Positions 1 through 7,504 of a DNA stretch of 20,415 nucleotides are shown piece after piece (the stretch's first letter is position 1; each line of letters begins with the position of its first letter). Source of the stretch: a virus; IMG/VR virus record IMGVR_UViG_3300007734_000436, positions 1 through 20,415 of that record, one strand, 5' to 3'. The position numbers and the translations under genes are program-made. The notes under the pieces are model-generated. The model had not been told where the DNA came from. It saw only the letters and a program-made list of their open reading frames with translations, and did not search any database.

Positions 1-41
1 GTATTCCGCACGCGTGTGTGGCAGGAAAAAACAGCTGTCAT
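1..41 (-). CDS. Possible start of a further gene, cut by the window edge
   Basis: An ATG at 41-39 directly follows the TAA stop (44-42) of the preceding gene, and the frame stays open for 13 codons to the edge (begins MTAVFSCH). Tight stop/start junctions are the rule in this array, which is the only support. Nothing can be said about function. Confidence 0.3.
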   Translation of the reverse strand, partial: MTAVFSCHTRVRN

Positions 42-1023: not shown

Positions 1024-1496
1024 CCCTTCATAAGCCAATGTGACCATGCACCACAGGCGTTTGCAGCACCAAACCTATCAGTGCCATATCTGTGTTTAAG
1101 GTATTTAATGTGCCAAGTAATTTGTGTCTTGTAGTCAGCTGTAGCTAAAAATTTTGATCGGCCTTGTGGCAAGCCATAATGTGACCCATTTTTACTTTTG
1201 GGATCCCAACGGCTCTCCATAGTCACCAATGATGTTAAACAATCATATTGATCTGCACTGTAATCTAATTGTCGCAGGTATTCCATTTGATAAGTTTTTA
1301 TATCTTGTTTAGCAAAGACAGGATTTATATTTATTAGATTTATTAGTATTACAAATATTGACATTTGGGTGACTAGATTTTTAGGAAAGCCCCCCCTACC
1401 CCCCCATTTGAAAACATAAGGTAGGTAAGAGAGTCTGACACTCGGTATGACTGAGTTCCAGTGTAAGCCCCCAACAAAGCGGTTGAAACTTAACAT
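1014..1496 (-). CDS. Secreted lytic transglycosylase-like protein (SLT/lysozyme-like fold)
   Basis: Predicted peptidoglycan-cleaving enzyme. The C-terminal about 90 residues carry the actinobacterial lysozyme-like pattern: DQYDCLTSLVTMESRWDP with the likely catalytic Glu in MES, then HYGLPQG, then CGAWSHWLMKGWH at the end. The two Cys (in YDC and ACGAW) could form a disulfide outside the cell. Two starts compete. ATG 1496 has a strong Shine-Dalgarno (AAGGAAGGA about 6 bases upstream) and gives 160 residues with an unusual 44-residue leader. ATG 1364 begins with a clean signal peptide (MSIFVILINLININPVFA) but lacks a good ribosome site. The leader contains two G7 runs. The gene is far from the endolysin/holin cassette, so it may serve wall remodelling or entry rather than final lysis. 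Confidence 0.75.
   Translation of the reverse strand: MLSFNRFVGGLHWNSVIPSVRLSYLPYVFKWGGRGGFPKNLVTQMSIFVILINLININPVFAKQDIKTYQMEYLRQLDYSADQYDCLTSLVTMESRWDPKSKNGSHYGLPQGRSKFLATADYKTQITWHIKYLKHRYGTDRFGAANACGAWSHWLMKGWH
1390..1405 (-). repeat. G7-TA-G7 homopolymer tract inside the transglycosylase leader
   Basis: The coding strand reads GGGGGGGTAGGGGGGG, two runs of exactly seven G separated by TA, in otherwise AT-rich DNA. It lies between the strong Shine-Dalgarno/ATG at 1496 and the signal-peptide ATG at 1364, and is read in frame as Gly-Gly-Arg-Gly-Gly. The tract satisfies the pattern of four G3 blocks with loops of 1, 2 and 1 bases, so a G-quadruplex is possible in the transcript. Runs of this length are also prone to slippage. 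Confidence 0.85.
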
Positions 1497-1516
1497 GGCT
1501 GTCCTTCCTTTGCAAG

Positions 1517-3088: not shown

Positions 3089-3275
3089 ACTTCACCGCTT
3101 CCTTGAACTTGTCTAACCAATAACCCTCAACCATTGCAGCTGAGAGCCTACCTCTGACCTGAGATGCACCCATAGATTTATGAGCGTATGCCCTAATCAG
3201 AGAAGCCTTTACAAAGTGTGTGCGTTTGCTATCAACATACGCACCACTCACCTTGTCATATTTAACAATTACCAT
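3078..3275 (-). CDS. Small basic hypothetical protein
   Basis: A 65-residue protein I do not recognise. It is basic and has no cysteine, membrane segment or signal peptide. An N-terminal beta-like stretch (MVIVKYDKVSGAYVDSKR) is followed by two probable helices (KASLIRAYAHKSMG and AAMVEGYWLDKFKEAV). The size and charge would suit a small nucleic-acid-binding or accessory protein of the prim-pol next to it, but this is inferred from context only. It overlaps the prim-pol gene's stop by 7 bases and the following gene's start by 11, so it is a member of the coupled array and not a chance frame. Confidence 0.7.
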   Translation of the reverse strand: MVIVKYDKVSGAYVDSKRTHFVKASLIRAYAHKSMGASQVRGRLSAAMVEGYWLDKFKEAVKYEL

Positions 3276-3751
3276 GTCATCAATTTCATCAAGTCCTCTG
3301 GTAGATCTACCGGTGCTACATCATTTACTATTTTGTATGGTGTACCGCTTGGATGTATTGATGGTGGTAGGACTACATAACCTTTGTGTTTTATATCTAT
3401 ACCGGATATTAGTTTGCCCTTAAATTGCATAGGCTTTGGCACATAAAAATATATGTGGTAGCCATCATGTGTAGCTACAACATGTGTATTGCATCTAAAA
3501 CAGCGATCCAATAACTCATAAAATTTAGGATCTCTGCATGCATTTCTAAAATCAAAATCTAATACAACCAAACTAGATTGTGATATACCAAGACCTATGT
3601 TTAGCTCTTGATCTGCAAACCATTGATCAATCTTTTCTTGATCTATTGTTGCATCTAAATAACCATGGCGTAAAAATCTTGCAGGCTCTTTAGATTGTTT
3701 TTTTAATGGCAGTACAAACCAACCCTTTTGTGCATACTCTGTAGCGTTCAT
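3269..3751 (-). CDS. Stand-alone prim-pol domain (bifunctional DNA primase/polymerase N-terminal, AEP superfamily)
   Basis: Predicted to synthesise primers and/or extend DNA. The 160-residue protein is essentially one domain. It starts with the helix YAQKGWFVLPLKKQSKEP, which is typical of the family (the 'Lys-x-P' loop before the first strand). It has the metal-binding motif VVLDFDFR (D65, D67), the nucleotide-binding THDGYHIYF (H99), and the third acidic motif GIDIKHKGYVVLPPS (D119) followed by IHPSGTPY. Most phage relatives continue into a helicase or a PriCT domain; here the stop comes right after the domain. No separate helicase is visible in this window. Start ATG 3751 makes an ATGA overlap with the zinc protein. 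Confidence 0.85.
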   Translation of the reverse strand: MNATEYAQKGWFVLPLKKQSKEPARFLRHGYLDATIDQEKIDQWFADQELNIGLGISQSSLVVLDFDFRNACRDPKFYELLDRCFRCNTHVVATHDGYHIYFYVPKPMQFKGKLISGIDIKHKGYVVLPPSIHPSGTPYKIVNDVAPVDLPEDLMKLMTW

Positions 3752-3987
3752 GCGTTCACCTTCACCCTATCGGCATAAGCTGTTTGCCAATCAAAATTAT
3801 TAGCATCATCAATTGCATAAGCTGTTTTAATTCTTGCATTATGTAACTCACTAGCTCTGTGACCAGATGGTCTTTTGCAACTTAATCCGGGCTGTGCATC
3901 ACATGTAGGACAAACTAAAGAGCGTGGACAAACATCACCACGCGTTACACCATTGCACCAAGTACATTTTGTTTCTGTATATTTCAT
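3748..3987 (-). CDS. Zinc-binding protein of the CPTC...GLSC actinophage type
   Basis: The ATG at 3987 is chosen because it has a strong Shine-Dalgarno (AGGGGG six bases upstream), giving 79 residues; an upstream ATG at 4014 lacks one and lies within the inverted repeat. There are two metal sites: CTWC with a later C (residues about 8-20), and CPTCDAQPGLSCKRPSGHRA followed by ELHNAR, the recognisable C-x2-C-x7-C...H pattern of small zinc-finger proteins found in actinophages and their hosts. The C-terminal part is helical and less conserved. It is the first gene after the regulatory gap at 3988-4054, so it probably leads the DNA-metabolism transcript. Nucleic-acid binding is likely; the exact role is unknown. 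Confidence 0.8.
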   Translation of the reverse strand: MKYTETKCTWCNGVTRGDVCPRSLVCPTCDAQPGLSCKRPSGHRASELHNARIKTAYAIDDANNFDWQTAYADRVKVNA

Positions 3988-4006
3988 ATTAACCCCCTTC
4001 AAGGTC

Positions 4007-4056
4007 AATTGCATTTACAAAAGCAATTAAAGCATATCCCACTGACAAATGCAATT
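4007..4056. repeat. 10-bp perfect inverted repeat around the early-block promoter
   Basis: The arms are AATTGCATTT (4007-4016) and AAATGCAATT (4047-4056), with a 30-base spacer. The repeat brackets the promoter candidate and sits between the metallophosphoesterase stop and the zinc-protein ribosome site. It could be a repressor operator pair or a hairpin in the transcript. Confidence 0.7.
4026..4054 (-). promoter_or_regulatory. Candidate promoter for the DNA-metabolism block
   Basis: Read on the minus strand: a -35-like TTGCAT (4054-4049), a 17-base spacer, and a -10-like TTTAAT (4031-4026, five of six matches to TATAAT). It lies in one of the few real intergenic gaps and is followed by a strong ribosome site for the zinc protein. 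The -35 match is weak (three of six), so this is a candidate only. Confidence 0.45.
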
Positions 4057-4828
4057 ACCCAAAGGCTTTTCCTAGCGCGGCAAAGCTGCCATCTGTGTTG
4101 AACCGGATCATCTCAAAGCTAGGATTGCCACGCTTGATCGTCATAATCACAGCCCCAGCTTGCCAATTAGCATAATAGCCGCCCTTGGCCAGATAGCGCA
4201 TCTTAGAGATGTTACATGTATGACCTACCTCTATACCTACTAAAACCCTCTGTAATCGGCCATTAAAGGCCTCTGAGTGGCATGTGTAGCCCATCCTATG
4301 ACTATGCCCTGCAATTACAGACCGACCCCACCTTTTTGCGATATTTAACGCGCTTGAACCGCCTACCCTAGAAAGGTTGCCCTCATCACCATGGCAGAGT
4401 ACAAAGTCAGTACCCGGTATCTCATAAGGCTTTTTAGCAAAGTAAATGCCAAGATCGTCATAGCCCATAAACTTTTCATATTGTAACTCTGGTAGAGCCA
4501 TCAAGCCCGGTATTTGACTAACTGCACTAAATAACCTATCACCATGATTAGACCTTGAAACTACATCTGTTTTAAGATCATACAAAATATCTTTGCAAAG
4601 ATCTCGGTCAGCATTTAATGTTTGTTGAAATGACTCAGCTTTACCTTGACTGTATTTTGAGATTGTATTTAGGTCAAGCTCATCACCTACATTTAATACA
4701 AGATCAAACTTAAAAGTATTAACAAGTTTTTTTAGATTGACAATAGCCTCATCAAATTGAAATGGTACTTGCAGGTCACTACAAATTAAGTACCTTGCGT
4801 TAAATGACTTGTCGCGCTTAATCGTCAT
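4055..4828 (-). CDS. Calcineurin-like metallophosphoesterase
   Basis: Predicted two-metal phosphoesterase acting on nucleic acid ends, cyclic or modified nucleotides, or phosphoproteins. From ATG 4828 it has 257 residues; in-frame ATGs at 4834 and 4837 add only two or three. Motifs in order: CSDLQVPF (residues about 16-23), VGDELD (47-52), SNHGD (93-97), CHGDEGNLS (145-153) and AGHSHRMG (173-180). This is the full metallophosphoesterase set, except that the first motif reads D-L-Q where the family usually has D-x-H, a substitution I recall in other phage members. It starts inside the last codons of the small charged gene and ends at the regulatory gap before the zinc protein. Confidence 0.85.
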   Translation of the reverse strand: MTIKRDKSFNARYLICSDLQVPFQFDEAIVNLKKLVNTFKFDLVLNVGDELDLNTISKYSQGKAESFQQTLNADRDLCKDILYDLKTDVVSRSNHGDRLFSAVSQIPGLMALPELQYEKFMGYDDLGIYFAKKPYEIPGTDFVLCHGDEGNLSRVGGSSALNIAKRWGRSVIAGHSHRMGYTCHSEAFNGRLQRVLVGIEVGHTCNISKMRYLAKGGYYANWQAGAVIMTIKRGNPSFEMIRFNTDGSFAALGKAFG

Positions 4829-6843: not shown

Positions 6844-7034
6844 CAGCTGTTAAGGCCAAAATTTTTATCTGTAGGATCAAAATATCTTGCCAAAGGTGCG
6901 ACTAATGCACCGGCAAGTATAGATAACTCAGGGCGTATATCTGCTACTAATGCCAAGACTGTGGTGACAGTAGCAGCGGCTATACTGCGTAAGTAAGATT
7001 TAACAATTGCTTTTTGTTTTACACTTAATTTCAT
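6843..7034 (-). CDS. Putative holin
   Basis: A 63-residue protein with a basic N-terminus (MKLSVKQKAIVKSYLR), a hydrophobic segment AAATVTTVLALVADI (about 19-33), a second one ELSILAGALVAPLARYF (about 36-52), and a short hydrophilic tail. Two closely spaced membrane segments in a protein of about 60 residues, coupled by ATGA to the endolysin gene, fit a small class II-like holin that opens the membrane for endolysin release. The segments are rather Ala-rich and moderately hydrophobic. The FDPTDKNFG tail resembles small actinophage holins. The assignment rests mainly on topology and position. Confidence 0.65.
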   Translation of the reverse strand: MKLSVKQKAIVKSYLRSIAAATVTTVLALVADIRPELSILAGALVAPLARYFDPTDKNFGLNS

Positions 7035-7504
7035 TTGAGTCCTAACTCTTTTATTTTAGTTTGCACTTGAGCTTTGTCAAAGGCTATTTCAAAGTGCATT
7101 TCATCCTTACGCCTTTTGTAATTGCCACCCCATGACAAACCATATTTGACTATAAGCAATTGTATAGTATTTGATTGTTGTTTTGTAAATGTATTTGATT
7201 TACCTAGAGGGTGTTTAGTAGCGTTCAAATCTACAGCTGTACCGGATGAGTGATTGCTCAAGACTTTATCTGATCCTCTAGTCATCCTAAATGCATATCC
7301 CCAGTCATCTAATTGACCTTGATCAATAGGCTCTACAAGCTCATCAAACTCTTTACAAAAGGCAACAAGTATTGGTGCTACATCTTTGGCACATGCAATT
7401 TTTAAGGATGTGCCGGTTATAGCAAAAGATTGTATGCCTATAGCTTTGCGGTCTTCGCTAGCCGGCCAGCCATTAGGACTTGTCAGCTCAATAATTCTTG
7501 CCAT
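7031..7504 (-). CDS. Endolysin, M15-family (VanY-like) zinc peptidase
   Basis: Cleaves peptide cross-links or stems of host peptidoglycan at lysis. The 157-residue protein is nearly a single catalytic domain. Visible: SNHSSGTAVDLN (residues 83-94), matching SxHxxGxAxD with zinc ligands H85 and D92, and DEMHFEI (134-140) with catalytic E135 and third ligand H137. F72-R73 and W125 sit where substrate-contacting residues usually lie. There is no signal peptide, so release should depend on the holin encoded immediately downstream (ATGA overlap). There is no separate wall-binding domain. The Shine-Dalgarno is distant: a GGGGG run about 14 bases before the ATG. L-alanyl-D-glutamate or D-Ala-D-Ala type specificity cannot be told apart. 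Confidence 0.85.
   Translation of the reverse strand: MARIIELTSPNGWPASEDRKAIGIQSFAITGTSLKIACAKDVAPILVAFCKEFDELVEPIDQGQLDDWGYAFRMTRGSDKVLSNHSSGTAVDLNATKHPLGKSNTFTKQQSNTIQLLIVKYGLSWGGNYKRRKDEMHFEIAFDKAQVQTKIKELGLK

Follow-up and report, generated by a model that had tools for sequence, protein, structure and literature searches.

A conserved structured phage RNA with a G-tract hairpin, nested in the reading frame of a lysin gene of an uncultivated virus

The lysin gene and the RNA element at its 5' end

The window, i.e., the whole stretch of DNA analyzed here, comprises the 20,415 bases of the IMG/VR record IMGVR_UViG_3300007734_000436. On its minus strand an ORF of 160 amino acids (1014-1496), supported by a Shine-Dalgarno sequence, an open frame and a PHROG match, encodes a lysin, the C-terminal part of which is a transglycosylase (PHROG 12661 profile match, E = 5.7e-10), while its first 44 codons come from the RNA element described below. 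The first-pass annotation of this DNA had placed a strong Shine-Dalgarno sequence ahead of ATG 1496 and a signal peptide starting at ATG 1364, and both features were found: AAAGGAAGGA lies at 1502-1511 (minus), where the relatives are purine-rich at the equivalent position, and the hydrophobic, signal-peptide-like segment MSIFVILINLININPVFA, as read from the sequence, begins at ATG 1364 and occupies 1311-1364 (minus). In the relatives the codon corresponding to ATG 1364 is usually GTG, or GCG in L006-L010, and is not preceded by a Shine-Dalgarno sequence. Since ATG 1364 is not kept and lacks such a sequence, ATG 1496 is the better-supported start, and ATG 1364, judging by this comparison, is not a conserved second start. 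The transglycosylase is not the sole lysis candidate, as the window also encodes a second wall hydrolase, an endolysin, beside the tail genes (7031-7504, minus; PHROG 1512, E = 5.8e-25). Small zinc-ribbon-like ORFs with CxxC pairs adjoin the lysin (1520-1622 and 2100-2270, minus); FmdB-like zinc-ribbon genes flank many non-coding members of the RNA family as well.

Many of the relatives' contigs stop at the same ...GCGGAATAC as base 1 of the window (window positions 1-20 and 20415), with HNH and terminase genes at the opposite end. This is probably a natural end of a linear genome, in which case the 20.4-kb window would be a near-complete genome. A cos or packaging site at the tract was rejected, as the natural end shared by the relatives' contigs is found away from the tract, about 1.1 kb downstream of the lysin. 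Two of the lysin matches, L012 and L044, belong to one 21.3-kb contig (IMGVR_UViG_3300042317_000124) and lie at its two ends, which perhaps reflects a terminal repeat or an assembly join.

The structured RNA element of about 120 nt, delimited by a covariance model (model R3, see below), extends over 1365-1485 (minus). Its architecture, common to the family, is a P1 hairpin, a repeat R1, a middle strand M, a hairpin P3 with a G5-9/TA/G5-9 arm, and a second repeat copy R2. Ahead of it, an extended -10-like motif TGTTAAGTT (1487-1495, minus) overlaps the start codon and represents a putative promoter of the RNA. The equivalent of P1, CAAC-CGCUUU-GUUG at 1472-1485 (minus), was identified by the cmsearch alignment to the family P1; this hairpin is weak or absent in several lysin relatives. 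R1, the first copy of an imperfect direct repeat (GGGGGCTTACAC...GAGTGTCA; 1436-1472, minus), is conserved in all lysin leaders and is homologous, via L145, to GTGGGGCRGAAACYTC...GATGACGG of the non-coding members. P3 (1391-1433, minus) consists of a pyrimidine-rich 5' arm (1416-1433), a loop (1408-1415) and a 3' arm (1391-1407) carrying the G-tract; its folding energy is -22.1 kcal/mol (z = -3.15), the tract being paired with CUCUCUUACCUACCUUAU. The G7-TA-G7 tract itself, GGGGGGGTAGGGGGGG, is located at 1390-1405 (minus), as established by sequence and folding, and is the single such site in the 20,415-base record; it is real and belongs to the 3' arm of P3, within a structured RNA conserved in phages. 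R2 (CTTTCCTAAAAATCTAGTCACCCAAATGTCA; 1359-1389, minus), recognized by comparison of the leaders, corresponds to CRTTTCTTAAAATC...GGATTCAGGCA in the non-coding members. A scan for an intrinsic terminator (a GC-rich hairpin with a direct U run) found none, P3 being followed by CUUUCCUAAAAAUC. The P2 stem, formed by M with the R2 tail, is present in the non-coding members and mismatched in the window, which is a derived, partial member of the P1-R1-M-P3-R2 family.

Conservation of the leader among lysin relatives

From IMG/VR, 42 close lysin relatives with the leader were collected (L002-L043; 61-85% identity over the match), and 12 further ones were added (L117, L120, L164, L187 and new contigs). 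All of them keep R1 (GGGGGCTTACACTGGAACTCAGTCATACCGAGTGTCA), the pyrimidine arm and hairpin, the G-tract and R2 (CTTTCCTAAAAATCTAGTCACCCAAGTGTCA). A hairpin whose 3' arm is the tract was present in 34 of the 34 lysin leaders folded, with varying stems (CAU/AUG, AUAUAAAA/UUUUAUAU, AAUAUU/AAUAUU) and with G5TG7 or G6TAG6 as the tract in some of them. The tract or its close forms (G6TAG6, G5TG7) occur in about 50 related phage contigs, and since the whole leader is conserved at the nucleotide level in the relatives, the tract is neither a chance occurrence nor an assembly error.

The alignment also shows that the tract is kept while the amino acids vary. Insertions and deletions between lineages shift the frame locally, so that the same nucleotides are translated as GGLHWNSVIPSV or GAYTETQSYRVS, depending on the lineage, and the G-tract is read in three phases across the lysin leaders. 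At the same time, the frame of the ORF is open from the start codon to beyond R2 in all 32 distinct leaders, the other two frames in none of the 32. The frame is open, yet the nucleotides are kept across lineages, which means that both the nucleic acid sequence and the open frame are maintained: in the lineage of the window the lysin reading frame runs through the RNA, and the same DNA is kept as RNA and as an open frame. The identity of the element as an RNA and its nesting in the lysin frame are very probable; covariation within the lysin family alone is thin. In the likely history of this lineage, an RNA leader preceding the lysin was drawn into the coding sequence once the ORF had acquired a start further upstream, and the RNA constraints were retained.

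A lysin-specific regulator common to all lysin relatives was also considered and rejected: the 37 distant lysins (L045-L081) have no nearby tract, bar one short unrelated G run. The element is therefore separable from the lysin.

Homologs in other phages

The RNA family was found in some 200 environmental contigs of uncultivated phages, about 160 of which carry the RNA as non-coding sequence; these counts were obtained with exact patterns and are lower bounds. Contigs with the tract and the same surroundings outside the lysin surfaced among the matches to the bare tract. The R1 pattern (GTGGGGCNGNNACNTCN{0,8}GATGACGG) matched 95 stretches of viral contigs, and in nearly all of these a hairpin with a G-tract follows some 50 nt further on. 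An independent pattern of tract plus R2 gave 70 further contigs, with R1 upstream in 70 of 70 and P1 wherever the contig reaches. The bare 16-mer G7TAG7 is common in viral contigs (at least 120 stretches), and a generic G7TAG7 motif was rejected, many of its matches being C-run/G-run hairpins followed by degenerate TTCTG repeats, without R1; these were left out of the family counts. There are also many GC-rich viral contigs (L091, L108, L114, L126, L129, L148, L172, L191 and others) in which a C-run/short-loop/G7TAG7 hairpin is followed by degenerate tandem pentamers or hexamers, e.g., TTCTG or GATTCT, with no R1 upstream.

Coding and non-coding members are linked by covariance models, for which all E-values are rough, the calibration having been shortened. 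Model R1, built from eight non-coding sequences, matched L145 (E = 4e-12) and L152 (E = 4e-7; both rough, shortened calibration), and it matched the lysin leaders L120 and L164 at full length (rough E = 1e-4) and the window element in part only. In the reverse direction, model R2, built from 15 lysin leaders, gave a full-length match to the non-coding L145 (E = 3.2e-11; rough, shortened calibration). Model R3, comprising 96 sequences including L120 and L164 and excluding the window and L002-L043, matched the window at full length over 1365-1485 with 35.3 bits and a rough E of 1.6e-8, the next best match having 7.6 bits; in 409 kb the same match had E = 3.2e-7 (rough, shortened calibration). 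Most other lysin leaders are also matched by this model, L002, L030 and L031 scoring weakly.

Several more distant elements were observed. In a GC-rich contig, L157 (4746-4882), a G7TAG7 element matches model R3 at full length (E = 8e-5), being a further divergent member. A G7TAG7 hairpin near terminase genes of unrelated phages (L123, 7414-7567; L154, 11695-11850; L130, minus strand, about 2906-2968; L150, about 3907-4110) is flanked by imperfect direct repeats, in which upstream ACTCA boxes become downstream ATCTA boxes. The match of model R3 to the elements of L123, L154 and L130 is weak (E 0.002-0.03), and L150 gives none; these elements are possibly a distant branch or a convergent one.

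Scanning of 13 sources, including the window and non-coding members, against Rfam 15 gave no match at the gathering threshold, and a permissive Rfam scan of the window region gave chance-level matches only. Applied to the genomes of 84,980 species of bacteria and archaea, the R1 pattern gave eight matches, none with a G-tract and all judged to be due to chance, and a host-encoded RNA was accordingly rejected. Searches with blastn detected no similar element in 50,697 named phage records (window, L085, L208-type, L154 and L150 queries; chance-level matches at most) or in 72,556 plasmid records (L213-type query). Apparently, as far as these searches reach, the RNA family is confined to phages. 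It is absent from Rfam 15, and no description of this RNA was found in the open-access literature; the functional kind of the family (leader, small RNA, primer) may be a known one.

Covariation and competing pairings

The fold was evaluated on alignment A6, consisting of 71 distinct non-coding rows, with a structure of P1, P2 and P3 (24 pairs). In this alignment 95.5% of the cells are paired, and 14 of the 24 pairs have changes on both sides. Double-change cells number 105, compared with a mean of 24 in shuffled alignments (0 of 500 shuffles reaching the observed value; the shuffles are not corrected for relatedness), and when the partners were slid by 1-3 columns, pairing fell to 45-62%. Covariation on alignment A3 was similar. 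P1 of the family, with 100% of its cells paired and both sides showing changes, is a short stem with mostly GNRA-like loops (GCGG-GNAA-CCGU, GCGC-GAAA-GCGU, GCGA-GUAA-UCGU); the helix homologous to P3 covaries in the non-coding members. P3 contains many G-U pairs (one pair is U-G in 49 sequences and C-G in 18), which indicates RNA rather than DNA.

The tails of R1 and R2 agree within a sequence in 79 of 99 cases, versus 17% when swapped between different types, and M is complementary to both of them: the triple R1 tail/M/R2 tail reads GGC/GCC/GGC in 28 distinct sequences and GAC/GTC/GAC in 21, rarer matched types being also present. Pairing of the same three M columns amounts to 98.6% for the R1 tail (24 double-change cells) and to 98.1% for the R2 tail (29 double-change cells), at only three pairs per side and among related sequences. 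These linked changes of M with both tails are what a strand-exchange switch predicts, and we consider a two-state fold slightly more likely than not. Pairing of R1 with the entire middle strand beyond the tail was, by eye, not consistently complementary and was dropped.

Promoter signal and genomic context

A -10-like hexamer, often extended (TGNTANNNT), is located 6-7 nt ahead of P1 in 44 of 66 distinct non-coding members; with this spacing transcription would begin at P1. All 34 lysin leaders examined have TGNTANNNT in overlap with the start codon, and codon 2 is always NTA (TTA, ATA or GTA, for Leu, Ile or Val), which suggests a nucleotide constraint. A sigma-70 scan for two hexamers detected no promoter at this site in the window, so that an own promoter there is inferred.

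Most non-coding members lie in the space that separates the last late genes from an early operon, which includes Cas4-like and DnaB-like genes; in those clades with a lysin homolog detected downstream, this homolog is about 2.3-3 kb from the element. Other arrangements also occur. The non-coding element stands directly before a lysin homolog in L216, L222, L235, L240, L244, L249, L255 and L285 and in L219, and in L235 and L152, where it precedes the lysin, the lysin-glycosyltransferase order is the same as in the window. In the L155 group the first gene begins about 13 nt after R2. L085, L147, L151 and L211 have the element in antisense orientation to both neighbors. In the window a prim-pol is encoded at 3269-3751.

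Possible functions of the RNA

The overall best explanation of these data, which we regard as probable, is a conserved phage RNA acting in cis as a leader, with strand exchange, and nested in the lysin frame in the lineage of the window. Transcription would start from a promoter that belongs to the RNA itself and lies immediately ahead of P1 (overlapping the start codon in the window lineage); M would pair first with the R1 tail as the RNA emerges and, after synthesis of the R2 tail and the G-tract, would shift to these. In this way the RNA may control the genes that follow, either the early replication operon or the lysin, as a leader or attenuator acting in cis; in the window lineage, refolding would be coupled to the passage of the ribosomes that translate the element. 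Taken separately, the cis-leader role is a tentative assignment. The explanation as a whole is weakened by P2 not being kept in the window lineage, by the thin covariation within the lysin family and by the negative sigma-70 scan.

The proposed leader resembles known leader RNAs with competing helices, such as attenuators and riboswitches, in that M pairs with an upstream or a downstream partner with linked changes for both, and in its position before operons; it differs from them in having no identified ligand, terminator or sequestered ribosome site and in matching no Rfam family. The put element of phage HK022 is a processive antitermination RNA at the head of the phage early operon. With RNAs of the put type the phage element would share the position right behind an early promoter and a structure starting from the first nucleotides; its architecture, with a G-tract arm and two direct repeats, sets it apart.

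The main rival to a cis-acting leader is a free-standing, trans-acting small RNA of the phage, with its own promoter, ending after R2 and directed at host or phage targets, in which case the proximity to particular genes would be incidental; we consider it unlikely. The promoter signature is as expected of such an RNA. The clade of L085, L147 and L211, being antisense to both flanking genes, fits it better than it fits a cis leader, GC-rich hairpins follow just past R2 in these contigs and in L151, and in the L208 group the next gene apparently, judging by the sequence, has a promoter of its own. Against it stand the short distance from R2 to the gene in the L155 group and the lysin directly behind the element in L216, L235 and L219, as expected of a 5' leader, and no target of such a small RNA was identified.

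A less probable alternative, suggested by analogy, is that of a replication-priming transcript: the G-tract RNA would stay on the C-rich template as an R-loop or hybrid quadruplex, and its end would prime phage DNA synthesis, a mechanism of the kind proposed for mitochondrial CSB II. In teleost mitochondria, CSB-2 (CCCCCCTACCCCCC) is thought to take part in RNA-primer formation, and G6-TA-G6 is its exact complement (PMC3739747). The element, moreover, adjoins replication genes (DnaB-like, Cas4-like, the prim-pol of the window) in either orientation, and for a hybrid quadruplex just two G runs per strand, as present in G6TAG6, are enough. However, tracts of this kind often arise by chance in viral contigs, and priming leaves the covarying P1 and P2 helices and the competing R1:M and M:R2 pairings unexplained. 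The likeness to mitochondrial CSB II lies in the nearly identical tract (G6-TA-G6 in the RNA sense in teleosts; PMC3739747), in the location near a replication module and, presumably, in the tract being within about 100 nt of a promoter; the phage element differs in its covarying P1 and P2, the pyrimidine 5' arm on its G-tract and the duplicated R1 and R2, and is unrelated in sequence outside the tract. More doubtful still is a full phage analog of the CSB II primer, i.e., a promoter-driven two-state transcript whose G-tract would rest on the C-rich template and prime replication, and in which, in the lineage of the window, an origin transcript would have been turned into lysin coding sequence with its RNA structure kept.

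That the element acts at the DNA level, as origin iterons or a terminase or recombination site with a protein bound to R1 and R2, seems improbable. R1 and R2 do co-vary as direct repeats and the element is kept in either orientation relative to its neighbors, but the GNRA-like loops and the numerous G-U pairs point to RNA, and the genome end lies elsewhere, at the ...GCGGAATAC shared by many relatives with base 1 of the window.

The first-pass annotation had proposed that homopolymer slippage or a G-quadruplex in the tract toggles the long form of the lysin or its export. The notion of the tract as a nucleic acid element acting at the RNA level is supported by our data; the switch itself is very unlikely. 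It is true that a slip of a single G in either run breaks the long form, since, as read from the sequence, any one-base slip introduces an in-frame stop ahead of the hydrophobic segment. Nearly all lysin relatives with G7TAG7, however, share one tract length, lineages with other tracts (G5TG7, G6TAG6) are again in frame, as are all the distinct leaders, and no frame-changing variation in tract length was seen among near-identical genomes of lysin relatives. Near-identical non-coding contigs, L085 and L141, do differ in the second G run (G8 vs G9), which speaks for slippage; the difference, in the non-coding form, is possibly homopolymer variation or a sequencing error. With quadruplexes allowed, ViennaRNA predicts for G7TAG7 a three-tier quadruplex of -27.7 kcal/mol versus -22.1 for the hairpin, which favors a quadruplex in silico, but for G6TAG6, G5TAG5 and G5TG7, the forms in most homologs and some lysin relatives, it predicts weak two-tier quadruplexes only (-9.7 to -18 kcal/mol). 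Four G3 blocks are not conserved in the homologs, most of which are thus incapable of an intramolecular three-tier quadruplex, while the hairpin is kept in every folded leader; the hairpin is thus the conserved property, and a three-tier quadruplex may be possible in this particular phage. Toggling of export between two starts fares no better, the inner ATG not being conserved and the element not being tied to export, as most members are non-coding. Phase-variable homopolymer (contingency) loci are similar in having extended runs of G close to the 5' end of the ORF of a surface-acting protein; they differ from the phage tract, which belongs to a conserved RNA fold, is for the most part fixed among the lysin relatives and lies in non-coding sequence in the majority of homologs.

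Finally, ordinary protein-coding conservation of an extended signal peptide, consistent as it is with the Shine-Dalgarno sequence and the always-open frame, is practically negligible as an explanation, since different frames are used across the middle of the leader, yielding unrelated peptides (GGLHWNSVIPSV vs GAYTETQSYRVS) from unchanged nucleotides, and the homologs are non-coding; the frame changes rule out a protein-level explanation of the leader.

Significance

The position of the RNA at the head of early operons or before a lysin makes a regulatory or a replication role directly testable. One odd G-tract has led to an RNA family with direct evidence for two competing folds, and the lineage of the window provides a natural case of a structured RNA gene taken into a reading frame, in which the nucleotides are kept, the amino acids are free and the frame is always open.
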